Assembly: GCA_004154925.1 (NCBI GenBank)
Contig: QJNS01000005.1
Coordinates: 434,001-498,000 of the forward strand
DNA from: Monosporascus cannonballus
Taxonomy: Eukaryota; Ascomycota; Sordariomycetes; Xylariales
DNA: 64,000 bases
Direction of reading: 5' to 3'
Shown: piece after piece, positions 38,552-64,000 of the stretch
How the letters are laid out: every line of letters begins with the position of its first letter
Numbering within the stretch: position 1 is the stretch's first letter
Notes under the pieces: generated by a model
What the model was told of the DNA's origin: nothing
Databases searched by the model: none
What the model saw: only the letters and a program-made list of their open reading frames with translations
Made by a program: the position numbers and the translations under genes

Positions 38552-39893
38552 ATGATACCCCAGCTGTATATATTTGCATTATAATGAGAGCAGTACATTC
38601 GACTGTGGTGTAACCAGTGGATACTGGTGGAGCTTGTTCGCCGTACCCCTATCATGAACTACTAGCGAGTCGTTGCCGTTAATTGGTTGTCAACGCTCGG
38701 AGCCAGTAACTACTAGCCTCTCACCTCACCTAATGAATAGACCCAGCAATAAATACGGATTTCCACCAAAACGCATGACATGTTAAAACTAATGATAAAC
38801 TAATACATACTACAGAGTTGAAGCTGTATTAGGTCAAAGACATTAATTCACTATGTTAGGCCTTATCCAATTATAGTGATTAATACTAAAGGAATAGCTA
38901 ACATAATTTTGAATTAACCAAAGGCAGTTTAAAGATAAGACGGGTTGGAAAAGGTGTTACGACCGGCGCATGTAGGATCTGGTAGCCTAAGGGGTTAATG
39001 TCTAGGCCCACGCCCCGAGATAATCCAGGGCTGCATTTGCTCCATTATCTGATAGATGAGATGATTGATGCTGGGAGGTTCGACGAGGACCCTTGCCTGA
39101 GCATGCTGATATATGAAGATGGTCAACTAGAAGACATACAGAGACATCCGAGATAGGTGGGCACGATAATGCCTGGAGGAATTCTTCACTCTTAGTGTCC
39201 TCTTTCTGGGCTCTGCCGCCGGGCTTTGAGCTATCTCTGCCATTGTCCACCGCCCTCAAGACTTATTGCCTTGGGGAAGCGGCAAGGTTAGACTGCTGCA
39301 TGTGTAGCCTCCAGTGGTGTGATGAGAAATGCGGCTATTGCATCGCAGTGCTCATCGCATTCTGTCAGTTAGGCCAAACCTGCGATCCATCACCTAATGC
39401 TAGGTACTCATAAATACCTTCTTGAGCAATTTCTTGGCGTGTGCCACAAAACTTTACATTGGCTACATTGTGCGCCACCGTCGCCGTTAACTGGACGCCA
39501 GTACCCTGATATGCAAAATCGCATTGATTGCGGGCCTCAGTCACGCCCCGAAAACATAGCCGCGTTAGCACCAGTACGTTAGAGAATGCAGCCGACGTAC
39601 CGTCATGTCAGCTGTGGCACTTTTGTCCACGTGGGAGCATCACGTTCTTTCGCGGATGGCCTAGAATCTATTACATCACTCGCCTATGGAAAATGGCAGA
39701 ATGCGCAGGATATGCATGTTGTCGGCTCTGGAATCAGCCGCAGCTGAACGAGTCGGCCAGCACAGTCTGCTTCAAAATCGTGGTCGCGCCCAGAAATATC
39801 AGCCTGCGTCAGATTAGTGCTAATCGGACAGATATCATATTGCAGACTCGGTTGCGCGAGCGACAGAGAGTATGAGAGATCAGGAGCGACAAC
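38552..39893. other. Intergenic region upstream of the HET gene
   Basis: 1.3 kb without a supported gene. A locally AT-rich patch lies at 38,760-38,930. Small open frames on both strands (39,002-39,259 minus; 39,528-39,875 plus) show no family resemblance. Confidence 0.45.
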
Positions 39894-41894
39894 ATGGCTG
39901 CAACCTCGCACTCAACCTACCCGAGCCAGCTCTCAATCTACCCGAGCCAGCTGCCGGCAGGATACATTCGCCTTCTCACCATCCTTCCTCGTGCGGCTAG
40001 CAACAGCCCGTATTTGAACCTGGAATTGAGGATTGTGGCTCTGTCGCCAGAGGCTGGACGCCGACCCAGCTATTTGGCCCTCTCCTATGTCTGGGGTCCA
40101 CCAGATCAGGAAAAGAAGCTAGTGTACGTTAATGGCTGTCCGTTCGCCGTCGGGAGGAACCTGGAGAGCGCTCTCCTCCATCTACAAGATAAGATTCTTC
40201 TGCCGATATGGATCGACGCGATATGTATCAACCAGGTCGACGACAGTGAGAAAAGTGCGCAGGTGGCTCAGATGGGAACAGTCTACAGCTCGGCACAAGA
40301 GACCATCATATGGCTTCAAGAGGGCACTCCGGAGACGGACAACCTTTTCTCGCAGATGGAGGACGTGGGCACCCAGGCGATCCATGCTGGGATATGGAAT
40401 CTGGAGCCCAACGACATGAAGATCTGGCCTAACGTTGACTTTCAAAAATCTCATATCAGGAATGCACTTCAACGCCTCATGGACACGATCAGAAAAGGTC
40501 GGCAGTTTCCCATGACTGCCCTAGTGGACTTCTCTTATCGACCGTGGTTCCGAAGAGCGTGGATCGTCCAGGAGCTGTCTCGCCCCACCCAGTACAGATT
40601 CATGTGTGGACACAGGGCCGTTTCCGGGGACGTCTTTATCGCGGCCTTTTTCTTCTGCGTGCTCTGGTTCGCCAACGAGCTGGCGCCCTTGGCCACCTCG
40701 GGGGTCTCCAAGCTCATTGGCGCTGGCAAGGCCCTATGGAGGAACCCTCCGATGATAGGCGGTGCGTTTCAGAGAATCATCAACGAGCAGCAGTTCATGA
40801 TCAGCCCTCGTGCTGCGACCACCCTTGGGACTCGCAGAAAGGTCCGGTACGGGGCCGGGTTGACGTTGATGCAGGCGCTGGTGAATGCATTCACCTTGAC
40901 GTCGGATGGGCCGCTCGAAGCTTCGGTGCCCAAGGACAAGGTGTATGCTTTCCTCGGCGTTGCCAGAGACAGTCAAGAGCTCGGAATCCAGCCAGACTAC
41001 AGTGATCATGTCACTTATCAGCACGTCTATACCCAAGTAGCAGGTGCACTTATTCGGGCAGGTCGTTTGGACATCCTTGGACTTTGCAGAGTCGGCTATT
41101 TAAGGACCGAACCTTACTCTAAAGTCGCCCGGGACCCCGCACTGCCGTCTTGGGTGCCAGACTGGAACAGACCAATCGTAACGGCCTGGAGCCAGTGTTT
41201 TGAAGATGGGATTTATCACGCTTCAAGAAACATGCCACGTATCAATGCAGCTCCGACTGTATTGATTACGCCGCCCCTAGCAGCGACTCTCAGACTCAAG
41301 GCAATGTTCCTCGGAACAGTGTCCCAGCTTGGATCCGCGTGGACACCACAGTGGGAGAAGGAATTCGACTACGCCGCGGCACAGTTGTTGTTCCAGGAAG
41401 TAGAGCAGTTCCTCTCACAGAGCGTCAGTATCAGGGTCTACACAGACCAGCAGCGCAGCGAGGGGCCGTGGCGGATCCCCATCGGCGACAAGGAGGTCAA
41501 CCCGCTCGGCATAACCGCCCGAGCAACCACCCGGTCGTACAATGAGTACTTGGAGCTGAAGCATTTCATGGCGTCTTTGCAGCAGCAGGGGAAGGGGCAA
41601 GTAATAACATTCCTGACAAGCATACGCGGTCTCTGGGCCTCGTATATGAGCAATATGAAGGACATGTGGGATGCGCGGCCGTGCGTGACCGGTTACGGCC
41701 ATGTTGGATTGTGTCCGCTGGAGACCCGTGTACACGATGAGATATGGTTACCCGTTGGGGCGCACGTGCCATACATATTTCGCAAGACGAGCACGAGTGA
41801 TTGGCGTCTTGTTGGGGAGGCATTCCTGTACGGTGTAATGGATGGGGAGCTCAGTTGTATTGAGCAGGACCTCTATGAACTGAATGTCGTATGA
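39894..41894 (+). CDS. HET-domain (heterokaryon incompatibility) protein
   Basis: 666 residues, single exon, intact. HET domains trigger cell death when genetically different fungal cells fuse, and they act in the cytoplasm. The HET core covers about residues 58-230: YLALSYVWG (60-68), LPIWIDAICINQVDDSEKS (103-121), QMGTVYSSAQETIIWL (126-141), and PWFRRAWIVQELSRPTQ with the MCG motif near 205-230. The C-terminal part (about 330-666) is family-specific without repeats. A short N-terminal duplication (YPSQLSIYPSQLP, residues 9-21) is visible at the DNA level. The start codon at 39,894 is the first ATG in frame. An NLR-like and second HET remnant lies just downstream on the opposite strand, so this is a nonself-recognition neighbourhood. 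Confidence 0.93.
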   Translation: MAATSHSTYPSQLSIYPSQLPAGYIRLLTILPRAASNSPYLNLELRIVALSPEAGRRPSYLALSYVWGPPDQEKKLVYVNGCPFAVGRNLESALLHLQDKILLPIWIDAICINQVDDSEKSAQVAQMGTVYSSAQETIIWLQEGTPETDNLFSQMEDVGTQAIHAGIWNLEPNDMKIWPNVDFQKSHIRNALQRLMDTIRKGRQFPMTALVDFSYRPWFRRAWIVQELSRPTQYRFMCGHRAVSGDVFIAAFFFCVLWFANELAPLATSGVSKLIGAGKALWRNPPMIGGAFQRIINEQQFMISPRAATTLGTRRKVRYGAGLTLMQALVNAFTLTSDGPLEASVPKDKVYAFLGVARDSQELGIQPDYSDHVTYQHVYTQVAGALIRAGRLDILGLCRVGYLRTEPYSKVARDPALPSWVPDWNRPIVTAWSQCFEDGIYHASRNMPRINAAPTVLITPPLAATLRLKAMFLGTVSQLGSAWTPQWEKEFDYAAAQLLFQEVEQFLSQSVSIRVYTDQQRSEGPWRIPIGDKEVNPLGITARATTRSYNEYLELKHFMASLQQQGKGQVITFLTSIRGLWASYMSNMKDMWDARPCVTGYGHVGLCPLETRVHDEIWLPVGAHVPYIFRKTSTSDWRLVGEAFLYGVMDGELSCIEQDLYELNVV

Positions 41895-46345: not shown

Positions 46346-48526
46346 TCACCAGCCCCTTCCAGTTTTCTCTTCAGCTCCCGGCTGGATAACATGATATTTC
46401 CAGATCCTGGAAGTCATGTCACGAGAGCCAGTGGCGAATGATCCGCCCATAGGGTTCGGCGAGACGGAGATCACACTGCTCTTGTGGCCTTCAAGCCTGA
46501 GCAGGGGGACACCAGTGCGAGGATCCCAGAATTGAACGCAGCAGTCCCCGGAGCCGGAGATGATCCAGGCACCATTGGGAGTGACAGCGACGGAGGTAAC
46601 AAAATCCTGCTTTGAATATTAGCTACGGCCTTAGACAAACTTTGTAAAAATAATGACGTACTCTGTGGCCTTCAAAAGTCTTGATGTTGCCCTTAGCAGA
46701 CGGCCGAGAATTAGGAGTACCGCCACGAGGAGGTATAAGCTCCCACGTCTTGATGGTTTTGTCCAAGCTGCCGCTGACAAGGTCCCTGCCGTTGGGTGCA
46801 AAAGCGACGGAGTAGACGCCCTCGCGGTGACCCTCCGCACCTCCCAGAATCTTGACAAGATCTCCAGTTTGGATTTCCCAAACGCGGAGCTTATTGTCGA
46901 ACACGCTAGCCGCCACATACTTACTATCGGGGAACATAGCGACAGTGGTCACGCCGTGCTCGACGCTCAGGACCCGGAAGAGCTGGCCTGTTTCAAAGTC
47001 CCAGAGACGAACAGTGCGGTCGTGACTACCAGATGCAATGGTTCGGCCATCGCGAGCGAATTCAACAGAGTGGATGTCTTGCTCATGGCCGGAGAAAGTG
47101 TTTCGAATGGTTCGGCTAGCAATATCCCAAACCTGGCAGAATGATTAGCAAAGTGACCTCTTAGACCGATGGAGGGCTAGTCAGGTACTCTGATCAACCT
47201 ATCTTCACCCGTGGCAAGGTACTTGCCGTCAGGACTGAAGCACACACTTCGGATATAGCCGCGTATACTAGGGCCGACTGAATCGGCCCCAAGTACGCAG
47301 AGCTTCTCGCCTGTCGCCACGTCGTATATTTGAGCAGAGCCATTGCGGCCGGTCGCTACATATTTTCCATCAGCACTGAAGCGCACATTGAAAACTACAC
47401 TGTTGTGGTTAAGGGTGTGGACGAGCTCAACATCAAGAACGCGGCGGTGACGATTGAAAATGACGAAGTAGTTATCCGTAACTTTCTTTTGGTGCGGTGG
47501 AAGGCGATCGACCTCGAGATCGGCAAGATATATACCATCCAGAATCGCGAAGATCAAATCTGGGTCGACTCTGCTAGTGGCAAACAGAATGTTGACTATT
47601 TCCTCGTGCCCTCCGCGGGCTGCGATGTGTATTGGGGCGTCGCCGGACTCATTCTTCGAATCGGGATCGACCTTTCCAGTAGCAAGCAGAATGTTAACTA
47701 TTTCTTCGTCCCCTTCGTAGGCTGCGCTGCGTAATAGAGTTTCGCCTTCGACTCTGCCAGTAGCAAGCAGAACGTTGGCTACTGCCTGGTGTCCTCCCCG
47801 GACTGCGCTGTATAATGGTGTTTCGCCCGATTTATTTTTAAAATTGGGGTCGATTCTGCCAGTAGCAAGCAAAACGCTGACTACTTCCTGTTGTTCTCCC
47901 CGGACTGCGCCGTGTAATGGCGATTCGTCCGATTTATTCTTTAAATCTGGGTCGACTTCGCCAGTCGTCAGCAGCAACTTTAATATCGCCACATCTCCAT
48001 TTGCCGCCGCAATATGGAGTAGAGGGTTGACATTATTTTTCTCAGCATCAACCCACCCACATACGGCAAACAAACTAGTATCCCCAGCGGCACCAGAGCT
48101 TTGATTATAGCGGGACAGCAGATACTTCAGTATCTCCACCGCTCCGCTCTGCACGGCTGTTACGACGTAATACTTGAGAACGTAGACTGGTAGGCCCGAA
48201 AGAGTGAGCTTGCCTGCTGTTTCCACGAGTATAGGGAAGAGATCAGAATCTCGCCGCTTAATTGCTTCCCCAAGCGCTGTTATATCTTTGGATTTGATAA
48301 CGGAGGGGTTCATATGAGCCCCGTTTCGAATCAAATACTGACAAACCAAAACATGGCCATTTCTAATAGCCAGAACTAGTGGCGTCAATTGTCCTTTGGG
48401 CAGGGTAATTATATTCACGTCAATTCCCTGACGGACGAAGGCTTTTACTGCATCAAGGTCACCTCCGGCACATGCAGTGAAGATATCTGTCTTCTTATGA
48501 AACCCCGACATCACACACAGAAGCAT
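46346..48526 (-). CDS. Chimeric ankyrin-repeat / RCO-1 (TUP1)-type WD40 protein
   Basis: Three exons, 47,189-48,526, 46,662-47,132 and 46,346-46,606, with introns of 56 and 55 bp (GTACCT..CCAG, GTACGT..GCAG). Joined frame 690 codons, no lesions. Residues 12-322 are ankyrin repeats, the last five nearly identical 34-residue units (one of 27). Residues 336-368 are the linker found in RCO-1/TUP1 ([27 protein letters not shown]). Residues 369 to about 680 form the seven-bladed TUP1 propeller, with [52 protein letters not shown] and VQFWDPRTG. The usual N-terminal tetramer and Ssn6-binding region of the co-repressor is absent, replaced by ankyrin. I infer a regulator or effector that borrows the TUP1 protein-binding surface. 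The first ten codons ([10 protein letters not shown]) lie inside LTR-like repeat L; Met6 is an alternative start. Confidence 0.88.
47574..48070 (-). repeat. Coding tandem array, 102-bp ankyrin units
   Basis: Unit boundaries (the sequence CCAGTAGCAAGCA and variants) recur at 47,574, 47,676, 47,757, 47,859 and 47,961. The spacings are 102, 81, 102 and 102 bp, all multiples of three. The units are much more alike than ordinary ankyrin repeats, for example [20 protein letters not shown] against [20 protein letters not shown]. Confidence 0.85.
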
Positions 48527-48736
48527 ATAACTGAAGAAAGGTGTATTTAACAGGTTGCCTGACCTCTAGAAGATCCTAGCTAGAATGTGAGGGTAGCGAA
48601 CCCTCCTTTTGTACACGTAAATACAACTGTAGCTAAGAGGAAAAGATACCGGGGGTGCATAAAGTAGCCTCGTTTCAGTAGGTGATCAAACTAAGCCAAG
48701 GCTTAGCTGTTTGATCGACTTCAGCTGGGTCTGACA
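48496..48736 (-). promoter_or_regulatory. LTR-like repeat L, right copy; likely promoter of the ankyrin-WD40 gene
   Basis: Reverse complement of 23,438-23,677 over its full length, with few differences. On the minus strand it begins TGTCAGACCCAGCTG and ends GGTTTCATA, 30 bp into the ankyrin-WD40 reading frame. The TATA-like site of the left copy reads TGTACAAAAGGAGGG here. The flanks (AAAGA and CTTCT) do not form a target duplication, which suggests a rearrangement after insertion. The orientation is right for an LTR-driven transcript. Confidence 0.65.
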
Positions 48737-50259
48737 AAAGACCTTCACCAAGGAGGAGTTTCCAGACTGGACATACTACATCCCAAGGAGAGGGTCGAGC
48801 CCGTGTGGGAGTTGTTCTGCGTGCGGCTCGTTGAGCACTTTCCCGTCATTTCTCCGCGTGGTTCTCGGGAAGGTATTCAAGGCTGCTTTTGCTCCGCCGG
48901 ATGATGAGTCGAGGGAGGTCATTCTTGGGTGAAAGCTTGGCGAGCTCCTTGAATATGATTGCTAGTCAACCGGCAATCACCGTAGGAATCACCTGATAAA
49001 GGTCTACTAAGCTAAGAGCCTGTCAGTTGCCTCCAGTTTTGGATGTCAAGATGGCGAGATAGGGAGGAACGAACCTAATAAAATGGAAGTAGGTGAGCAA
49101 AATACGAGAACTCGACGGGATCCCGAGTTTTCCGCGTTATATGGCCGTATATGCTAGGTTGCGATCCTATTTTACTTGTTAGAGGTACGCAGTAAAGCGG
49201 GCTATGCCTTGGGAGGACCGTTCCTCGGAGACGGAGATGGACCCGGGGAACTGAACTCAGACACATCATTATGCTATATTCAGATCTCAGGCGAAGAGGC
49301 TGGTGTGGAGTGCAAAGACTGTGCACAAGGTGTGGCAAGCCCATGTGGCCTGGATGTGTTGTTGCTGTTAAACCCTGACGGCCGTACAAAACCGCAGGGA
49401 GCTTGCGCCAGCTGCTACTATAACGAAGCGAGTCACCCTTCTACTTCGAGAGGGCGTCGAATATGACTGAAGAGATTGCCGGACGGTGTAGATAAGTCCG
49501 GACAGGATCGAGAGGAACCGCTCACTGGGAAACAATGAATTTCCTTTCCCGCTTCGTCTGTCGAGGGGACCGTCTGACCTTCTGTTATCGAGGCGCGGCG
49601 GGCAGCCTCAGCGGACCGACGTCCCCGTCTTAATACCCGATGTAGAGGGGATCACGGAGTTAGAGAGCTCACGCATAAGCAGGACGTCATATTCGTCGAA
49701 TTATCCGTGACGACCGGCGATTGGACTCCGAGAATTCTCGTCGTGATGCGGTTTTGGACGAAGCTATTTTTAGCAGAAGTTGTTGCAGCTACTTACCCGT
49801 CCGGGAGGTGTCTCTGGGGAAAAGTATAGTCTCCCTTGCAGTGTCGTTCCTCGGTTTCTCGCCGAAGCATGCTATAACTATTCTAACTCCGCTGTCCCGG
49901 CCTCCAGAAGCGTTGCTCGTATAATGATGAGTTCCTTACAGTGCCACTAACCCTGGGCGGTTGGACGAAACGCACGGAATGAAGTTTATGGGAATAATAG
50001 AATGTCAGGACGAAAGTGATATACCAGTCATGAATCCGGTGTTTGCACGACAAGGGAACAGGAGTCACTGTACGAGAACCAGCGACCACAATGCCCTTGT
50101 GCGTATTAGAATAAGTGGTATTGTCAGTGAACAATGAGGTTGTGACTCTCTTCACCCACATGTCATTACTTTGAGTTTTCCCAAATTCTACAAGAGCGCG
50201 GTCTAGGCCCTTTCTCCTTCCACAATGTCCTTCTTAGCCGGCAGGATTTCGCTATTAGG
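48737..50259. other. Gene-poor stretch with a possible coding remnant
   Basis: About 48,740-48,925 (plus) reads like eroded protein (TKEEFPDWTYYIP, then in another frame VEPVWELFCVRLVEHFP), but I cannot name it. The remainder, including open frames 49,075-49,466 and 49,883-50,161, shows nothing recognisable. Confidence 0.4.
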
Positions 50260-51806: not shown

Positions 51807-54065
51807 ATGGCTTGGAATGGCAGTATCCTAAGTCTGGGCCTGCTTCCGCTCCTTAGCGGAGCCGTCCCATCATTTCATCAGCTTGTCCCCCGAACATGGA
51901 ATGGCAAGGACTATGCCTGTAAATGTTACGTGGGCGACGAGTGCTGGCCGGGCGAGAGCTCCTGGGCCGAACTGAATTCCACGGTGGGAGGGAATCTCAT
52001 CGTGAACATGCCTCCCGGGGCCCCTTGCTACGAGGTATTTCCCCCTCAGCGGAACAAGCATGTGGTCATTGGCTAAATATGTGTTGTCCGTAGACGTTTG
52101 AGGGTCCGTTGGGTACCGTATCGGCTTATGACGCCGCCGCATGCGCGGAAATCACTGCGAATTTCATGAGCCAATATTGGACGTTAGTCGCCCGTGACCA
52201 TACACGCCATGCTAACCCCAAACTGACTCCCAGCGTTCAGAGTCGAACAAGCAGCGGCGCTGCTGTGGACATACTTCACGAACGACACGTGCCGTCCAAC
52301 CCAGAACCCTACCGGCTCCTGCACCCTGGGATACTATGGCGTTTATGTCATCAAGGCCCAGACAAAGGAACACGTCAAGGCGGGAGTCGACTTTGCGCGG
52401 GAGAACAACTTGCGCCTGGTCATCAGGAACACCGGCCATGATTTCATCGGACGAAGCACCGGCTGGGGTGCGTTGGTGATTAACACGCACAGCTTCCAAG
52501 ATGTGGAGTTCACAGACCAGTATACCGGACCCGGCGGCTACGCGGGAGGCGCCGTCACCATAGGAGCAGGAGTGGAAGGCCGGGCCTTGCTCGCGGAGTC
52601 CCATGCGCAAGATCCCCCAGTCCAGGTTATGACAGGAGAGTGCCCAGTAAGTCCAAGCGGGCAGTCGAGTGGCAGCTAGCGGCTAATGAGATTTCAGACG
52701 GTGGGTGTAGCTGGCGGCCTTGTCCAAGGAGGTGAGTATTTGAGGTTGCTTAATCCCTTCTCTGATTTGCCTGAGACCCAATTCAGCCAAATACTCACAC
52801 CTTGTGCCCGTCGCTTGAGCCTGGGGGCCTCTCTCGGAGTACACGAGTGCACGCAAACGCCCCTAGTCCTCCAGGAGCCCCCTGTGCTCGAAGGCTCATA
52901 TACCAAAGACATGCTAATCCTAGTCGCATGATTTAGGTGGGCATGGCCCGTTGACACCTCTGCACGGGATGGTAGCCGATACCGCTCTCTCGTTTGAGGT
53001 CGTGACAGCTTCGGGCGAGATTCTGACCGCCAACTGCGACGAGAACCCAGATCTGTTCTGGGCCTTGAAGGGAGGTGGCCCGGGAGCTTTTGCCGTTGTC
53101 CTCTCGGTAACGCTCAAAACATTCCCGGAACAGAAATCTGCCGGGGTCATCGTCAACATAAACTCGACACTGACGCAGAACGAGACGCTCTTCTGGGAAG
53201 GGGTGAGGTCGTTCCATAAATACACCAATGACTTCGTAGGTGCCGGACTTTACGTCTACTTCGAGCTTATGGCGATGCGGTTGCATATTCAGCCTTTTGT
53301 CGGCGTCGGGAAGACCCTTGCGGAGATGCAAGACATTCTGAAGCCGATGTTCGACGAGTTCGATGCCCGCGGCGTACCGTATGACACTGCCGGCAAGGAA
53401 TTTGACACTCTACGGGATCTGTACATCGACCTATTCGAAGATGAGGGAGCCGGTGGATCGGCTCTCACCGGCGGGTGGTTGTTCACCCATCAAGATGTAG
53501 CAGAGAACAACGACGAAATCATCGAAGCGTTCAAGACGGTGATATCGCCCCGCGAAGACCTGGCCGGCCAGGGAGGCATCATCGGCCATCTGTGGGATGC
53601 CGGTCACAGCACCCCGGTGTCAAACAGCGCGACGCATCCGAGATTCAGAAACGCCACCGACTTCTCCATCTCCATTCTCCCGGTACCGGTCGGCGCGAGC
53701 TGGGAGCAGAAGGAGGACTTGCAGAATGTTCTCACTAACGTCCAAGACGAGGCGATGAGGAAGGCCGGCCCGAACGGCTGTGCCTATGTCAACGAGGTAA
53801 GCGTTCGCTCCCTAAAGTCTCGCTCGTTGTCTCTTCCCTCCTTTCTCGGCCCTGCTTTATCTCTTGACCCCGACTTACCAGACCGTCCCAGGGCGACCCG
53901 TTCCAACCGGACTGGCAAGATCACTTCTGGGGCTCGGAATATCCGGAACTACTGAGGATAAAGAAGGAATGGGATCCTGAAGGGGTCTTTTACACAGTCT
54001 CGACACCGGGAACCGAAGACTGGGAGGTTATTGAGTATGGTACCCGACTCTGCCGTAAGGTTTGA
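51807..54065 (+). CDS. Secreted FAD-linked oxidoreductase (berberine-bridge-enzyme type)
   Basis: Six exons: 51,807-52,034, 52,094-52,182, 52,241-52,646, 52,698-52,731, 52,937-53,796 and 53,892-54,065. They join in frame to 596 residues; all five introns have GT-AG ends (59, 58, 51, 205 and 95 bp). A signal peptide covers about 1-20. CKCYVGDECWP follows, then the FAD-binding PCMH domain with RNTGHDFIGRSTGWG (His172) and TGECPTVGVAGGLVQGGGHG (Cys240), the two residues that bind FAD covalently in this family. The berberine-bridge C-terminus is DHFWGSEYPELLRIKKEWDP and then GVFY. Such enzymes oxidise sugars or secondary metabolites with oxygen. No metabolite cluster is visible around it, so the substrate is unknown. 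Intact. The stop codon is 11 bp before a transposon terminus. Confidence 0.92.
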
Positions 54066-54401
54066 AGGCGCAGGCGCTGGTCAAATTAAATGGCGCACCC
54101 AACCGCCCCACCATCTAAAATTCCATATAATATATACATAAATCGACATGCAATAAGGGTTATTATATACGACTTTATGAATATAAAGCTTTATTAATAC
54201 GTATTATAATAACTTTAGCCGTTAATTTAATAAGTTATGCGTTATTCTTCGCTATTAATAAAATTCTTTTATCGTTATACAATAGATATAAATATAGCCT
54301 TCTGCTGCCCCTTATTTATTATGTCTAATCCTTTTCCAGCTAACCTTATAAGCTTCCGCGTATTAATATAAGGGTTGTTCGCGATATAGAACTTAACCTT
54401 C

Positions 54402-54608
54402 TATAAGAATATAGCCCCTATAAGGATGAGACTAGTAGCTAACCAGCTATCGATCAGTCACTAACTCACTTACTAATATAAATCCACCATCTGGCAGCTA
54501 GTGGGAAACGCCAGATAGAAGTAACCTAATACATTTATTTCTTGGAATCTGCTTTATAACTGGCCGGAAATTACCTTATCCCAGTTTATAACTATCTATT
54601 ATTTTATA
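54402..54608 (+). repeat. 5' LTR of retrotransposon B
   Basis: 207 bp, aligned end to end with the solo LTR at 20,264-20,469. The TG start has become TA by RIP. It keeps the central ATCTGGCAGCTAGTGGGAAA segment unchanged. Confidence 0.9.
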
Positions 54609-57600
54609 ATTTTTCTATTTTTATTATAAAAAATAACGCGATAATTATTAAAAATAAAGCTCGCCGATTGTAAAACGAACTTAAGTTATTAATCAAAAAG
54701 ATTACCGATCGGAACTTAATTAATAAACGATTAATTACGATACGGAAATAGGCGAAAAATTTATAACGAAACTTTAATAAATAAAAGATCATGGTTTCCG
54801 AGGTTTCGAATTACCTTATATATATAATAAGGATATATTCCGATAACCGTTAATTAAATGGTCTGAAAACGGATGTAATAAAATAACCGCATTCCGAAAT
54901 TAAAGCAAAAAAGGTAAAACTTTTTAATAATAATCAGATGTTGAAAATTATCCGTTAATAAAATAAATAATATTCGAAATTATTCCGATAATTAGCCGAA
55001 AACAAATAATAATATAAATTAAAAAAATTTAATTTTATAAATTAATTACGATATTATCGCAAAAGCTTAAAAGCAATAAATAAGTACCGTATTATAATTA
55101 TTCGAAGTTTTCTAAACGTACGTCGATTAAAAAGAAAATTAAATAAAAGCTGTTACGAAAATTTACGCCAAAAAACCAGGACGAAATGCGTTTACTTATA
55201 TCTAATAGGCCGTAGGCTATATAAACGTTTTTATTACGAACGTTTAGCAATTATACCGTATTATACTTAATTATTTTAATTATAAAAAAATTAATAATAA
55301 AAGATTTATAGATTTTCATTCAGAAAAATTATATAAATCCTGATTTTTTCGATAAGAAATATAAGGAACAATTTATAGAATTATAATAACGATCCGATTA
55401 ATTGCCGTCAAATTTTTACGTTAAATAAAAATTTCTAATTAATAAAATAAAATTTCGGACATTTTTAATTCGGAAAACGATCGAGATAATAAGTATTTTA
55501 TTTTTAATTACTTTTACAAATTAATATTAAAGTTACGAAATACCTTATTATAAAAAACGTTAAATTAAAACGAACTAATAATATAGCAAATAAGATAAAA
55601 CGTTATTAAAACGTTTGGAAAAAGGCGAAAAAAAACTAATTATTTTTCACTACAGGTATTAATAAAGATAAAAAATCTTATTTTAAAGCTTTCGGAAAAA
55701 TATTTCTAAAGTAAATTAAAGGTATTATATAAAAATAATAAGGACCGCAGATATTTTTATATTCGAAAGATAAATAATTGTCGATTTAATTTCGAACGAA
55801 AAAAATCCGTACGATTTAATATCTTTAATTTTTATAAGGGTTTATTTAAATATTATAATTATAAAAAGCCAAGCTATAAAAACGTAAATTATAAAATTAA
55901 AAAAGATACGAAAACTTTGTTATCCCGATTATACGGAAACTAATTTTCGAAAACCGTATAAAACGTTATAATATATAACGATAAACTAAATTAATCTTTA
56001 AACGAAAACCTAAAAAGGAGCTAGAATAAGCGTATATATTTAGTTTATTTCGGCTAATAATTGCAAAACGGTTAAAATAAAGCCGCCTGTTAAAAAAAGT
56101 ACTTATTAAAAAAATTCGAGTGATATAATAATATAAATAAATATAAATATCAAAATATAGATAAATACGAAAAGTAAAAAGTTAATGAAAAATTTTAATT
56201 TTTAAGTAATTTTCGTAAATATTCCGATCCTTATTAGCGTTAACGACGCATATATCAAATATTATAGGGCTTACGAAATTTCTATTAACATAATAAATAT
56301 TAAAAGGAACGAACGAAAATTTAAGTAAATTTATTTTGCAATACGCCGCGATCAGAAATCGCCCGATCTTCTATTATTTAAACCAAAAATAACTAAATTA
56401 AACGTTTTATTAAATATAACTATATATTAATAATTATATAAATTATTAAAAAAGGTTAATAGGTAAGAAATGATAAATTTAACGTTTTCCAATAAGTAAA
56501 TTTATACCGTTAATTTAATAAACCTAGCCGAAAAATTAGATATTCCGCAATTCGAAAAACAGCAGGAATAAAGAATAACCGATTTTTTTATATATTTAAA
56601 ATTTTTTTGGCAAATATATTCTAAAATAGCAGCGAAAAAAATACCTTAACAGTTAAGAGCAAAACATATAATAAACCTGATTCCAGAGAAAACGTCCTTA
56701 TTCGGCTTAATATATCGTATTTCGGAAACCTAAAAAAATATTTAAAAAAATATATCCGAAAAAACTTAAAAACAGGCCGAATATATTATTCGAAACGGAC
56801 GCAAAAGTATTAATATTATTCGTACTTAAAAAGGACGACAATTTTCGATTATGCGTGAATTATAAAAGGTTAAATCTGATAATGATAAAAAATCAATATT
56901 TTTAATTTTTAATTTTAAAAATAATATATCGTCTAAGATTAACTAAGGTATTTTCGAAAATTAATCTTAAAGACATTTATTACCGTATTAAGATTAAAAA
57001 AGACAATTAGTAAAAAACCGCTTTCTAAACGCGGTATAAATAATTTAAATATACGGTTATATTATTTAGACTTATTAACGCGCTATTTATATTCCAAGCT
57101 TATATTAATAACGTATTAACTGGATTAATTAATTATACATATATAATATATCTAAATAATATAATTAGTTATTCTCAAAATAAAAAAATATTCAAAGTAT
57201 TTTTAGTTAATTTATAAATAGTTATTATAATATTAACTATTTATTAAAAAGTTTATATGCGAATTGTTTTTTTTAAAAAAATAAAGTTTTTAAGATTTAT
57301 AATTAATATCGATAATTTAAAGATAGATCGCCAACGAGTCGATAATATTAAAATATAATTAAAACTAAAATTAATTTATAATATTTAAATATTTTTGTGA
57401 TTTGCAAATTTTTATCGGAAATTTATCGTTTATTGCTTACGTATTATCGAACTTATTATTAAATTTTTGAAAAGGGCGTAAATCAAAGGTAAAACAATAG
57501 AATTCCGATTACTCGAAAAAGTTAAAAAAGCGTTCCGAAATTTAAAAAATACCTTTTAATCGGCAATTATTTTTCGATATTAGGATAACGCCAAAAATAT

Positions 57601-60600
57601 TAAGGTTAAAATAAAGGTCTCGATAAAAGCTATATTAAGAATATTTTATAAAAATACAAAAAACATTAACGCCTACTTACATACTAATTGCAAAAACTAA
57701 GTTCAATCGAAAAACGGTAAATTAAAAACTAATAAAAATTATTAGCAATTATAAAAAATCTAGAATATTAGTAATAATATCTTAAGAGTACGAAAAAAGG
57801 TTTTCTAATACTTACCGATTATATAACGTTAAAAAATATAATAAAGGCGCCGGCGCATAACTTTAAAAAAAGGTTAACTCGATAAGTTTACTACCTTACA
57901 CAATTTGATTTTAAGATCTAATATTAACCGAGCGTTGTTAGCTCTGCGGATAAGTTATTTAGATATTCGGATTATATATTAAGGGAAATTGTATATAAGA
58001 ATGTAATTTCTACGTTATTTAAAAAATTCGAACTTGAGAATAATATGCCAGAAAACGTACGAAAAACGGTCGTAAATATATAACGCGACTGAAAGTATTA
58101 TAAAAAGGCAAAAGACCTTATAAAAACAATATACAATTCGTTTGTTATAAAATTCCCAGACAGATTTCAGATAACGGAAGCTTAAGTAATTACTATCCGC
58201 GTAAAAAAACGGAAAATCTTCGCTATACGATTACAATAAACTTTCGAAAAAAAGGAAAGCAAGGAATTATATATCTGCCGAACCTATCGTTTTGTAAAAT
58301 AAGTAAGAGTACGACGCTAACCACAAGACCAAAAGATCAGCAATTTCAAACTCTAATTAGAGTTTGGGCACCCAAATTCACCTTATAAGGACTAGCTATG
58401 CATATTATCACATGTTTACGAACAATAATACAAGCACGAATCATAATAATAATACGATTAACGGTTAAAAAATAACAACCGCAAACTACAACCGCACTAC
58501 AATTGGACTCCAAAGAATCTGGGAAGGACAAAACTAATACTAAAGCTATTATTTATAACCAATACGTCTTACGTTCCTTAACGAAAAGACTGGCCAAAAA
58601 CGAAACGGTACTATAGCTCAAAGTTTCCCGATAATTTTACGATCACATTCGAAAATTGCAAATTAAAAACTTAAATATTATAAAGTTAATACGAATAACT
58701 AAACGCCAAGCTGGAATAAAAAAAGATATTTCCTGGACTTAAATAAGATTTTATATTATCGGAATAAATTCGTAATTTCGTCGTAAAACGCTTTACGAAA
58801 ATAACTAATTAACTAGCACTATAATAATTTAAAGACAAAATATATAAGATGTATCCGTACGTTAAAATTAATAACTAAAAGGTTTCATTAAGAAAATATA
58901 ACGAACGATATTCGAAAATATATTAAATAATATCGGAACTGCTAATATATAATAAAACTACATTATAAACCATACGAACAATTACAGCTTTTGTCGTTAT
59001 CTAAATAATTTTTTCAAAAAGTTTCGTTAAATTTTATTACGAGATTTCCTAAAAGCCTAGATTTAAACGGGCTAAAGTACGACGTAATTCTAGTAATCGT
59101 TAACCGTTTTACGAAATTAAAATTATTTATCCTTACGGTTAAAACATTCACCGTAACCGAATTAACTTAATTGCTTTATAATAAAGCGGAATATAAATTC
59201 GACATATCTGCTAATTTTATTAACGATAAAAACAAATTACTAACGAATTAATTTTAGACGAAATTTTACGAAAAACGAAAAATAAAATAACGAATATCGA
59301 CCGCTTATTATCCGTAAACCAATAAGTAAATAGAATATATTTATTAGATTTTAAAATATTATTTTCGCAATTGCGTTAATATATATCAAAATAATTAGAT
59401 AAAATTATTCCGAAATACGGAATATATATATAAAAATACGCGAAATACTTTTACCGGCCGCTTTTTATTTAAAACTTTATATAAATATTATTTAAAAATA
59501 ATAAAATACTTTTTATAAAATTTTAAAAGATAAATATAAAAAATTAAAAAATGCTTCAAAAATGGCCGTTATTCGTCGAACAATATACGAATATTAAAAA
59601 GAAATAACGACAGCCTAAAAGAATATTATAATTAATACCATAAGCTTATAAAATTTAAATTAAGATAATAAATAAATATATTAATTAAAAACTTTAAATT
59701 TAAAAATAAAGAATTTGTACTTATTTATATCCGGATTATAAATAAAAAGCAAATAAGTTTCTAAATCTATAAATAAACCCTTTTTACCAAATATTAACAG
59801 ATATATAATATATTTTTATTATCTTTATTAAAACAGTAACATAATTAGAAATCGAATAATATTTAAATAACGTTATCGGATTTAATAAAGAAATAAGAAT
59901 AATAGGTAATAAAGAATATTATCTGTTACCGAGATAACCGAAAGCAACGTAAATATTTAATCAAATAAAAAAGCTAACTCGTTAAATATAATACGTAAAA
60001 ACCCCGAAAGCATTTCGAATACGCGTTGAAGATATTATAATATTATAAAAAAAGTTAAATACGTATATAAAAAATACAACGACTTAAAAACCGCAACATA
60101 ATAATAACTCGATCGGAAATTTATTAAATAATTATTAAAATTATAAAATATAATTTTAAGTAAAATTAAAATATTAATATTAAAATGTTACTTAATTATG
60201 TAATTATTTTTAAATTTTTAACAAATACTTACCTTATTAGATACCGGTTAAAAACTTATAAAAATATATAAAAATCGCATATTTATCTAGAAAATAAAAT
60301 TTCGCATTTAATTATTAAATCTATATATTAATTAGTCTCTAATATACGTATTAAAAAATTAATACAGAAATATCGGAAAACAATTAGAAAATATACGACA
60401 GCAAAAAATAAACATATTTATTAAATTTAATAAGCGTAAAACCCGGAAAAAACTTAAAAACATTTTATTTCTTACGAAAGATAAGGCCGAAATAACCGGA
60501 ATACAATTTATTATTAATCGGAAATAAGGCGCCGTTCTTAAAAAGCTTAACGTACTTAAGTTTAATAATAATTTTATTAAGTAAAACCGCTTTTAATTAT

Positions 60601-61693
60601 TATTATTAATAAGAATTAAAATTTCGTTAAAACATCGAAAGATAAACAGGAAATATTCGTGAATAAAAAATATAACAATATAACAACTTTCGAAAATCGC
60701 TTTACTTATAAAGGTATTTTAAATTTGCGCCTAATTAAAAATTAATTGAAAAATAATAAAAATAATATCATAATATTTATAAAAATGATTTAAATTTATA
60801 AACCTATACAAGGTCATTAAGACTAGATTTTCACAGTTATAACGAACAATCTGAAATCGATTTTCGTTATATTCAAAAAACGATATTTTTAATAATAGCC
60901 GTATTAAAGGCGAATTGAGTTTTGCGAAAAACGTTAAGTCGACGACCGATCGTAATTACGTCGAAACATTCGTACTAAATATTAGTAATACGAATATTCT
61001 CGAATTCGTCGATTAATTCCTAATTATCAGTACTAAATTAAAAAACCGTTTAAGCGGTACCTTTAAAAACGATCGAAATTTGAACAAAAATTAAATAACG
61101 ATTTTAATAATATTAAAAATAATTATTTACCGTACGAAAAATCTTGTAATAATAATTAATTACAACGTAATTTAAGGCGTCCAAAACTTAAACGTAAATT
61201 ATATGGTAATCGAAATAACATTATATTACGTAAAAATAATACGGCTTATTGTTTTCCGTAGTACGACTAATATTTATTTTATTATCGATATTAAAAAATA
61301 ATATTATAAAACCTTATTCGTTATTAATTTTATAATATTATTTTTTTAGAACTTTTTACAGAAATGAAAATATGACAAACGGAAATAATACGTAAAATAA
61401 ACCGAAAAGGCGAAATAAAAATAAAAAAACGAAAAACCGAACGAAATACGTGCGCAAAAAAAAATAAAAATATAAACGCGAAAAGGAAAAGAAAAAAAGA
61501 TAAATAAAATAAGGTTAAAAAACGGATTATAATAAAATATTAAGCAGAATATAATTAATTACGTAATATAGTACGTATAAATTATTACGGTACTAATTTA
61601 TAACATAATAAAACAGTATATTATCGACAAATATACGTAATTAGATTAATAATATTATTATTAAAAATTTTTAACTCAAAAAAGAGAAATAAC

Positions 61694-61900
61694 TATAAAA
61701 ATATAACTTTTATAAGAATAAGGCTGGTAGCGGACCAGTTGTCGATCAGCCACCGATTTACTTATTAATATAAATCTATTATCTAGTAGCTAATAGGAAA
61801 TACTAGATACAAGTAATCTAATATATTTACTTTTTAGAATCTGCTTTACGACTGGTCGGAGATCATCTCACCCTAGCTCACAGCTATCTATTATCTTACA
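61694..61900 (+). repeat. 3' LTR of retrotransposon B
   Basis: 207 bp, ending CAGCTATCTATTATCTTACA, followed by the RIP-changed duplication TCTTT. It differs from the 5' LTR mainly at C-to-T and G-to-A positions, with different sites hit in each. Confidence 0.9.
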
Positions 61901-63040
61901 TCTTTTTAATAATGCTTTCAATCGGGTTCGTTTCGAAATTATTATAATTTTCGAAATATAACTTAAATTATTATCCTGCTATATAATTCAATCCGTACGG
62001 CCGTGATAAAGTACTGCGAAAATTATCGTCTATTTTATGATCTCGATATATTTTGCCGAAATTATTGTACGGTAAAAGTCTTTAATTTTATATTAAAAAA
62101 GAATAATCGCTAGCTATTCGTATTATTTAATCTTATAACGTAATAAGCCTTTTATTTGTAATATTTTAAAAAAAAATTCGTAATAAAATATTTATGAAGA
62201 ACGTACTTTTACCAGCGTTATCCTCGATTTATGGTAAAGTTAAATTCAGTTGCGGTCTATTACGTCTTATAATTCTTAACCTTTTTTCCAATCTTATTTT
62301 TACCTTTTTTCTTAAAGCCGAAATATATTTTATTTTCGAAAACGAATTTCGCCAAAAAATTTAAGTTCTTTTAATAACTACCGGTTAACCTGTTAAATTT
62401 GTTCCACTCGGTCTTTTTCTAATAAAACTACTAAACTTAGACTTTTTCGTTCCGAAATAAATATAAATTTTTAACGGCTGAGAAGCCCTTTTAAAAATAT
62501 TTATAAAATATTAAAATTCGTTCTAGGCCTTTTCGCAAAAACTTATTACCTTAGCCGGTAATTATACGAGTGATAATATTTATTTTGATGAAAATAATTA
62601 ATAAATGTAACTTATATTTTGTCGAATTTACGTTTTTTTTCGACTTAAAACAATATATCAGAAATATCCTTCTTCCTTTAACGCCTATCTGTAATCTTGA
62701 AAATGTCGAATATCCTAAAGATTTCGCGATTTAGAGCGCCGACATCGAAAATGTTATTAAGCTTTTTGGCCCCCTTAATCTCGGCTTTAGCTATATTATT
62801 AACAGTATTTATTATTACTTAAAAACGAAAAATGAATTAAAAAGATAAGGTGGAAAATATTTACCATAATCGCGACATATCGTTTTTTATAATAATGTAA
62901 AAAGATTAAATAATTCTTATCGATATTGTTAGATTATAAAGGTTTGAAATTATAATAATTTAGATGAGTTTGGAGGCTAGTTAGAGTAGTGCGCCATTTA
63001 TTTTAACTAGTACATAAAGGCGGCACGGTCTATTCTACAG

Positions 63041-64000
63041 GTTGTCTCATCGTGATCAGGACCCTATTTTAGAGGTTGTAGCTGCGCCTACGGCGCAGCA
63101 ATCATAACCATAGCTATAGTTTTTAATCAAGAAATATCTGTTAGAAATCTAATATATCAGCTAAATTTCTTTAAGAATAATATTTATAAAAATAACAAAA
63201 TCTCCAAAATAAGGCATAATAATAAATTAAGCTTTTTTCGTTTCATATAATACATTTTTATATAAATTTGCAAAAATTAATATTATTAATTTTAATAATA
63301 TATATTAATTACGAAATTTATAATATTTTAATTTATGTATTTTATTATACAATTAAACGTTTTATTTTTTAATATAATACTAATCTTAATTAATATAAAA
63401 TAAAAATTACTATAATAAATATAATCTAAAGTTTCGATTAATATATATTATAACCTTTTATCTTTTTAAGCCAATACGATAATAATATAATTTTATAAGC
63501 CAAAATAATAATATATAAAATTTAAAATGATTTGTAATAAATTTCGAAATACATTTTTTTCTAAATTAACCAAATACAGATAATATATTCGAAAATTTAA
63601 AATAAATATTTTAAATTCTTAAACATTTAGTTTTTTAAAACAAAATATTTATTTTTATTCGATATTTGTATTGGTTTTTTGTCAATATAAACATAATTAA
63701 CCTATATATTAACATTATATATATAACTGATAATTTTACGAAATATTTATGCCATTAATTTATTTATTTTATATTAAACGTTATATTTAACGGATAAGTC
63801 CATATTTTAAGAAACAAATCAGTTAATATAATATATAATCTGGTTTTCGGAAAATATAATATTTTTTAATTATTAACATAAATTTCGGAAAATCCTTAAT
63901 TATTTGATATTTTAACAATACATTTAATTATTATTTATATGATATTATTAATTAAGTTAACAGAAAAATAATAAATTTATATATTAATAATTCTATATTT
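63041..64000 (+). mobile_element. DNA transposon T, third copy (cut by window end)
   Basis: Starts with TTGTCTCATCGTGATCAGGA, the counterpart of 19,976 onward, and runs parallel to 19,974-21,160 without the solo LTR. It supplies the empty-site sequence for that LTR near 63,330. Heavily RIP-mutated. The remaining part of the element should lie beyond 64,000. Confidence 0.8.

Follow-up and report, generated by a model that had tools for sequence, protein, structure and literature searches.

An ankyrin–RCO-1 propeller gene of Monosporascus is probably the sensor half of a fungal NLR

Introduction

In plant NLRs, integrated decoys are firmly established; for fungi they have so far been proposed only. 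The integrated domains carried by plant NLRs include the HMA domain of Pik-1 (PMC8294853), and for fungi it has been suggested that unusual NLR domains might be decoys (PMC5658179). CHK-2-like kinase domains in NLRs of the Sordariales have been described as putative integrated decoys in a survey that treats WD40 as a canonical C-terminal repeat, and whose main text names neither TUP1 nor rco-1 (PMC12258605). When WD40 is counted as an ordinary NLR repeat, a captured housekeeping propeller would be missed by such a survey.

Two further systems bear on the gene described here. In the NWD genes of Podospora, positive selection has been reported at WD40 codons 7, 9, 25 and 27, located on the top face of the propeller (PMC1805685, Paoletti et al.). 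In TUP1-type propellers, R1-2, R1 and D-1 are described as top-face hotspots, seven of which in Tup11 are essential for Fep1 binding as measured by calorimetry (PMC3419727). The Neurospora RCO-1 co-repressor is reported to be needed for hyphal fusion (PMC3068686). We found no earlier description of an NLR-TUP1 fusion among the papers listed in our literature searches.

Results

An open ankyrin-propeller gene with rco-1 introns

The window, meaning the whole 64,000-nucleotide stretch of contig QJNS01000005.1 that was analysed, carries on its minus strand a 684-codon gene of three exons (48511-46346), the joined frame of which has no internal stop. The protein on record is DL766_009005 of Monosporascus sp. 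MC13-8B (MC13 in the fusion comparisons below), an isolate listed as M. cannonballus from melon (PMC7407469). Its cluster row comprises one member sequence and three contigs, and the annotated model, of 618 aa, begins at M67 of the 684-residue frame. The sequence-only reading had placed the end of the gene at 48526, where there is indeed an in-frame ATG, but one lying five codons upstream of the start used here (48511); the open three-exon frame that it described was borne out.

All features of the gene lie on the minus strand. Exon 1 (47189..48511, 441 codons) encodes the ankyrin repeats, an RCO-1-type linker, blade 1 and the greater part of blade 2; exon 2 (46662..47132, 157 codons) completes blade 2 and runs as far as the beginning of blade 6, and exon 3 (46346..46606, 86 codons plus stop) supplies blades 6-7 and a C-terminal tail common to the mg162 and 5C6A proteins discussed below. 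Introns 1 (47133..47188, 56 bases) and 2 (46607..46661, 55 bases) both run GT..AG, and their removal leaves the clean junctions LIR/VWD and GHR/DF. A separate rco-1, which had been proposed as a check, is present in the same genome on contig C240, with introns at positions equal to both of those in the window gene. The ankyrin region (47558..48493, about residues 7-318) starts at what is the zinc-finger/ankyrin boundary in the CRB-9-2 relative, and the linker and seven-blade propeller (46394..47527, about residues 329-669) enclose both introns and hold 28 top-face positions; the junction between the two parts lies inside one uninterrupted exon. Pfam likewise gives ankyrin repeats followed by WD40 repeats, and NCBIfam gives generic repeat matches, all under cut-offs. 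Blade 2 of the fusion has lost one codon in its b-c turn.

As for the surroundings, a 672-aa frame with a HET domain (PF06985, 7.5e-30) is found at 39876-41894 on the plus strand, HET being the heterokaryon incompatibility domain; this frame and the fusion gene face each other tail to tail across about 4.5 kb. The gene island (46-62% GC, 24001-54000) is flanked by AT-rich blocks of 17-28% GC at 1-22000 and 54001-64000, resembling RIP-affected isochores.

The propeller is of the RCO-1/TUP1 type

Among the matches listed (best 120 of 3252), those from outside Monosporascus that come closest to the WD40 part are RCO-1/TUP1 proteins and basidiomycete TUP1-type propellers. Both the TUP1-type linker and the seven-blade propeller are present in the fusion, and its blades, which are diverged from one another, each align one to one with an RCO-1 blade. 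The AlphaFold model of the 618-aa protein (mean pLDDT 87.6) shows helix pairs followed by a strand-rich propeller, and the PDB structure it matches best is 1erj, through all three of its Tup1 chains (47% identity, TM 0.89-0.90 on target). The TUP1/RCO-1 identity assigned by the sequence-only reading was thus upheld by the best listed matches and the best fold, which also rule out ordinary NLR-type WD40 repeats. The same reading held that the part of TUP1 that tetramerises and binds Ssn6 is missing, and this too agrees with our search, since at E 0.1 no Tup_N was found within fusion residues 1-353 and the domain was detected (4.1e-18) in the N-terminus of the Monosporascus GIB2 RCO-1.

Compared with rco-1 of the same genome over 342 codons, the window propeller has a dN of 0.24 and a dS of 1.5-1.8, which is saturated, and identities at codon positions 1-3 are 77, 83 and 45%. 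With dN well below dS, the fold was retained while the face was altered. Tandem TUP1-type propellers were also seen in basidiomycete proteins (Astraeus, Gymnopilus; records P0003, P0004, P0006-P0008), and in Marasmius P0007 a protein kinase lies ahead of two such propellers.

Relatives of the gene are NACHT-type NLRs

Besides the gene itself, two of the proteins listed in the first search (best 120 of 3252) match both the ankyrin and the propeller parts, namely DL771_010412 of isolate 5C6A (P0002, 99% of the query) and DL764_002385 of M. ibericus (P0005, 71% of the query). Two more relatives, mg162 DL768_003106 (P0122, 1549 aa) and CRB-9-2 DL770_008288 (928 aa, without a propeller), came to light when residues 1-330 of the 5C6A protein served as the query. 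The mg162 protein is an NLR, with DUF7708 (9e-12), NPHP3_N (2.4e-33), a P-loop GMPGAGKT and the motif LIVLDGLDEC, and its precomputed domains are NACHT PF05729 and PF22939, which we take to be a winged-helix domain. After the NACHT come ankyrin repeats and then the RCO-1 linker with its seven blades, and the protein ends in the C-terminal tail also found in the window gene. The fused layout, which had been proposed for a search in other species, is present in three other isolates' records (5C6A, M. ibericus and mg162), and on this ground an assembly join is rejected.

Among the Monosporascus fusions, a full-length NLR with an unbroken NACHT is on record only for mg162. The 5C6A model begins downstream of the NACHT and reads through a stretch matching intron 1 of the window gene. 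For M. ibericus, PF24883 and PF22939 are among the precomputed domains of the record, but its model skips from GMPGAG past most of the NACHT, covers blades 2-5 only, without blade 1, and stops in blade 5; the linker is missing from both models. Since both look mis-predicted, these proteins may be more complete than their records. In the CRB-9-2 protein, two zinc-finger-like motifs lie just ahead of the ankyrin repeats, and homology to the window protein begins directly after them. Across 23 ankyrin units of 34 aa, taken from four proteins of Monosporascus, variability is highest at positions 19, 16, 8 and 20.

NACHT/NPHP3_N was not found in the window gene. The upstream stretch (48512..49500, minus strand), scanned for a remnant of the NLR half, gave only chance-level matches, and one ankyrin alignment with P0125 extends 17 codons beyond the ATG of the window gene. 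A genome search with the whole of P0122 scored 30 of 282 candidates and was repeated with the NLR half alone (53 matches; 56 of 66 candidates scored), and no close copy of this half turned up elsewhere in the genome; the strongest matches were 36% identical over 271 residues and 48% over 129, with five stops each, compared with 76-89% identity between the NLR halves of the Monosporascus records over aligned stretches. Taken together, the NLR architecture of the mg162 protein and the absence of a close copy of its NLR half from the searched genome indicate that the window gene corresponds to the 3' half of an NLR gene.

Two other regions of the genome, on contigs C129 (10926-13850) and C614 (169233-171110), show scattered exon-like matches of 30-48% identity across the whole DUF7708-NACHT half; several have internal stops, and they are paralogous NLR genes, possibly broken. 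Phaeosphaeriaceae and Glonium belong to the Dothideomycetes, and the Monosporascus NLR half is 69-70% identical to NLRs of Phaeosphaeriaceae sp. PMI808 and Glonium stellatum in a comparison of the records P0122, P0125 and P0127. On these identities, a transfer of the NLR half between fungal classes is possible.

A second capture in Gaeumannomyces

The mg162 propeller was searched against proteins of about 850-2700 aa only. Among the matches listed (best 120 of 4150), one row other than mg162 exceeds 51% identity, that of Gaeumannomyces hyphopodioides RB595_005026 (P0294; 1391 aa, a cluster of five sequences), with 68% identity to the mg162 propeller. This protein carries DUF7708 (4.9e-8), NPHP3_N (1.9e-35), the motif GPPGWGKS and two zinc-finger-like motifs, and its C-terminal part, as read from the protein record only, consists of the Pro-rich middle of RCO-1, the linker and the blades, with no ankyrin repeats between. 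Its NLR half is just 21-24% identical to those of mg162, P0125, P0127 and P0134 over long alignments. Its propeller is identical to that of G. tritici RCO-1 at 313 of 346 positions, compared with 62-72% identity between the Monosporascus fusions and Monosporascus RCO-1 (a range for which the 5C6A intron read-through was not masked).

In a propeller tree of 102 of the 111 hits P0009-P0119, five fusions and one outgroup, RB595_005026 groups with rco-1 of Magnaporthiopsis and Gaeumannomyces (Magnaporthales) with a support of 100, and the AU test on 41 rows rejected a topology in which the Monosporascus and Gaeumannomyces propellers go back to one capture (p = 0.004). An independent acquisition of the RCO-1 propeller by the G. 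hyphopodioides NLR is thus well supported by these sequence comparisons. For the source of the Monosporascus propeller, the AU confidence set contains the fungus's own rco-1 (p 0.32), Xylariales (0.31) and Leotiomycetes (0.23); when rooted on a basidiomycete, the tree gives the Monosporascus fusions a long branch that falls outside every RCO-1, a placement that we do not trust. The matches listed imply at least two NLR-RCO-1 captures, and more fusions may rank lower among the 4150.

Constraint on the docking face is reversed in the Monosporascus fusions

To compare the top (docking) face, the Podospora and Tup11 numberings were both mapped on RCO-1 by residue identity and spacing, with positions 7, 9, 25 and 27 of each blade taken as hot sites (28 sites). 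The comparison used nine RCO-1s, hand-picked for class coverage, and the four Monosporascus fusions, with the 5C6A intron-1 read-through masked in the tree and in the divergence, site-class and docking-residue counts. The seven Tup11 residues all fall at positions 7, 9 or 25 and are invariant in the nine RCO-1s. They are replaced at three of seven in the window copy, two of seven in mg162, two of six readable ones in 5C6A, none of four in M. ibericus and one of seven in Gaeumannomyces.

Over the 36 RCO-1 pairs, only 16 of 1008 hot-site cells differ versus 1294 of 9929 at other sites. Between fusions, the differences at hot versus other sites are 16/28 versus 52/276 for MC13-mg162 (p 2.7e-5), 13/25 versus 62/241 for MC13-5C6A (p 0.007), 9/25 versus 50/242 for mg162-5C6A (p 0.071), 10/16 versus 41/155 for MC13-ibericus (p 0.005) and 10/16 versus 37/156 for mg162-ibericus (p 0.002), p values that are rough because the pairs share branches. 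Among positions 5-33, the three most variable in the fusions are 25, 27 and 9, with 7 ranking lower, and only four of 23,751 four-position sets, the set 7, 9, 25 and 27 included, reach its mean variability. That set is not exceptionally conserved in RCO-1 among all sets (fraction 0.25).

The hot sites also vary more than the other site classes counted. In the four fusions, 21 of 28 hot sites vary, versus nine of 35 sites in the bottom a-b loop (p 1e-4) and 45 of 102 strand-d/linker sites (p 0.003); the corresponding counts in the nine RCO-1s are 2/28, 14/35 and 50/102. As a control, eight basidiomycete TUP1 propellers, drawn from four of five proteins (P0006 yielded none), gave a mean divergence of 0.33 at the hot sites and in the bottom loop alike, and of 0.23 at the remaining positions. 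These site counts show a reversal of constraint on the docking face between RCO-1 and the Monosporascus fusions.

Measured against RCO-1 itself, the excess at hot sites falls short of significance for MC13 (12/28 versus 81/275, p 0.11), mg162 (p 0.14), 5C6A (p 0.66), M. ibericus (p 0.34) and Gaeumannomyces (4/28 versus 26/273, p 0.30), and the Gaeumannomyces excess emerges only against the RCO-1 background (4/30 changes versus 16/1310, p 8e-4). Changes common to all fusions fall at none of 28 hot sites and at 16 of 276 others, a difference that is likewise not significant (p 0.20). One reading, unproven, is that the docking face was first preserved and diversified later. At position 9 of blade 3, MC13 and mg162 have exchanged Tyr for His, and Gaeumannomyces has separately undergone the same change.

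Discussion

The window gene is probably the sensor half of a fungal NLR, one into which a copy of the RCO-1/TUP1 propeller was taken as C-terminal recognition domain. The records give good support to its anatomy and to both captures, and the putative sensor role of the propeller has support at the amino-acid level. By analogy with NLR biology, the ankyrin array and propeller would sense a ligand, and in the full-length relatives sensing would free the NACHT ATPase so that the DUF7708 N-terminal part could act. The propeller may at first have been bait for an RCO-1 binder, its face diversifying afterwards as in HET-E. In the window lineage, the DUF7708-NACHT-WHD-zinc-finger part would then have gone, leaving an open ankyrin-propeller protein. 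A domain of a non-NLR host protein does lie inside an NLR in mg162 and RB595_005026, and the window copy is without a NACHT. The suggestion in the sequence-only reading that the propeller serves as a decoy in NLR-type recognition holds in part: among the relatives is a complete NACHT NLR, and the top face differs strongly from one fusion to another.

What the window copy does at present is a narrower question. A remnant is plausible, at something short of an even chance; a split sensor paired with a separate executor is weighed about equally with it, and other roles take the rest. The HET-domain frame about 4.5 kb off would be a possible candidate for that executor, by its position only. In a broader and tentative proposal, RCO-1/TUP1 would be a recurrent target of an intracellular attacker of fungi (a virus, mycoparasite or endosymbiont), DUF7708-NACHT-zinc-finger NLRs would have taken up its propeller on at least two occasions to serve as an integrated decoy, the face would be in an arms race, and one sensor would have split from its NACHT executor. 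Our literature search gave no pointer to RCO-1 as an effector target.

The alternative that survives best, and which we still regard as rather unlikely, is relaxed constraint, in which a captured propeller, free of its repression role, lets its face drift, the window gene being a fragment of a broken NLR in the course of decay. The lack of a NACHT and of a close NLR-half copy in the genome, the shortened blade 2, the similarly incomplete look of the M. ibericus and 5C6A records and the non-significant hot-site excess over RCO-1 itself would all fit such decay. Against it stand the 684 open codons with both splice sites intact, an overall dN far under dS, and the lack of the pattern in the diverged basidiomycete propellers. 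Relaxation alone, moreover, would not predict a top face more variable than both the strand-d/linker sites and the bottom loop, and this counts against it.

It was also proposed earlier that the protein competes with the co-repressor. A competitor of RCO-1 would bind the same DNA-bound partners and dampen repression, and the retained Tup1-like fold and linker, the missing Tup_N and the four of seven Fep1-binding residues still in place are what it might be expected to look like. The case is weakened by the replacement in the window copy of the other three, which the nine RCO-1s never vary; the face also varies between species and the relatives are NLRs, and we consider competition very improbable. 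We judge it very improbable, too, that the propeller is an output module bringing an activated NLR to the transcription partners of RCO-1 and so reprogramming genes: C-terminal RCO-1 propellers in two independent NLRs would suit this role, but it would need a preserved docking face, and 21 of 28 sites of that face vary. An assembly or gene-prediction artefact, or read-through of neighbours, can be dismissed despite the errors in the relatives' gene models, given a domain order found in four isolates and independently in Gaeumannomyces, and a junction within a single unbroken exon of the window gene.

If the sensor reading is true, the RCO-1 co-repressor becomes a concrete candidate for a guarded target of fungal immunity, and the two independent captures, with the reversed constraint on the face, offer defined baits for what fungal NLRs detect.

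Comparison with known systems

Among described systems, Pik-1 shares with the fusion a domain that stems from a non-NLR host protein and forms the most variable part of the NLR; the present case differs in being fungal, in using a co-repressor propeller and in having a window copy without the NACHT half. The CHK-2-like case, as far as it is described, is similar in that the C-terminal domain of a fungal NACHT NLR comes from a core single-copy gene, whereas here the domain is a WD40 propeller, not a kinase, and was taken at least twice.

The reported variation of the Podospora HET-D/HET-E NWD genes falls, as here, at WD40 positions 7, 9, 25 and 27 of the top face. Their repeats, however, are described as near-identical units under concerted evolution, in contrast to the seven diverged blades of the fusion, which keep the RCO-1 order and introns. 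S. pombe Tup11/Tup12 are a described example of duplicated TUP1 propellers with functional divergence, but both are full co-repressors with no ankyrin or NACHT fusion in that account (PMC2882346). With the RCO-1/TUP1 co-repressor itself, the fusion has in common the linker, the seven blades, two intron positions and the Tup1 fold, and it departs from it in lacking Tup_N, in carrying ankyrin repeats in front and in an unconserved docking face, which differs from that of Monosporascus RCO-1 at 12 of 28 positions.
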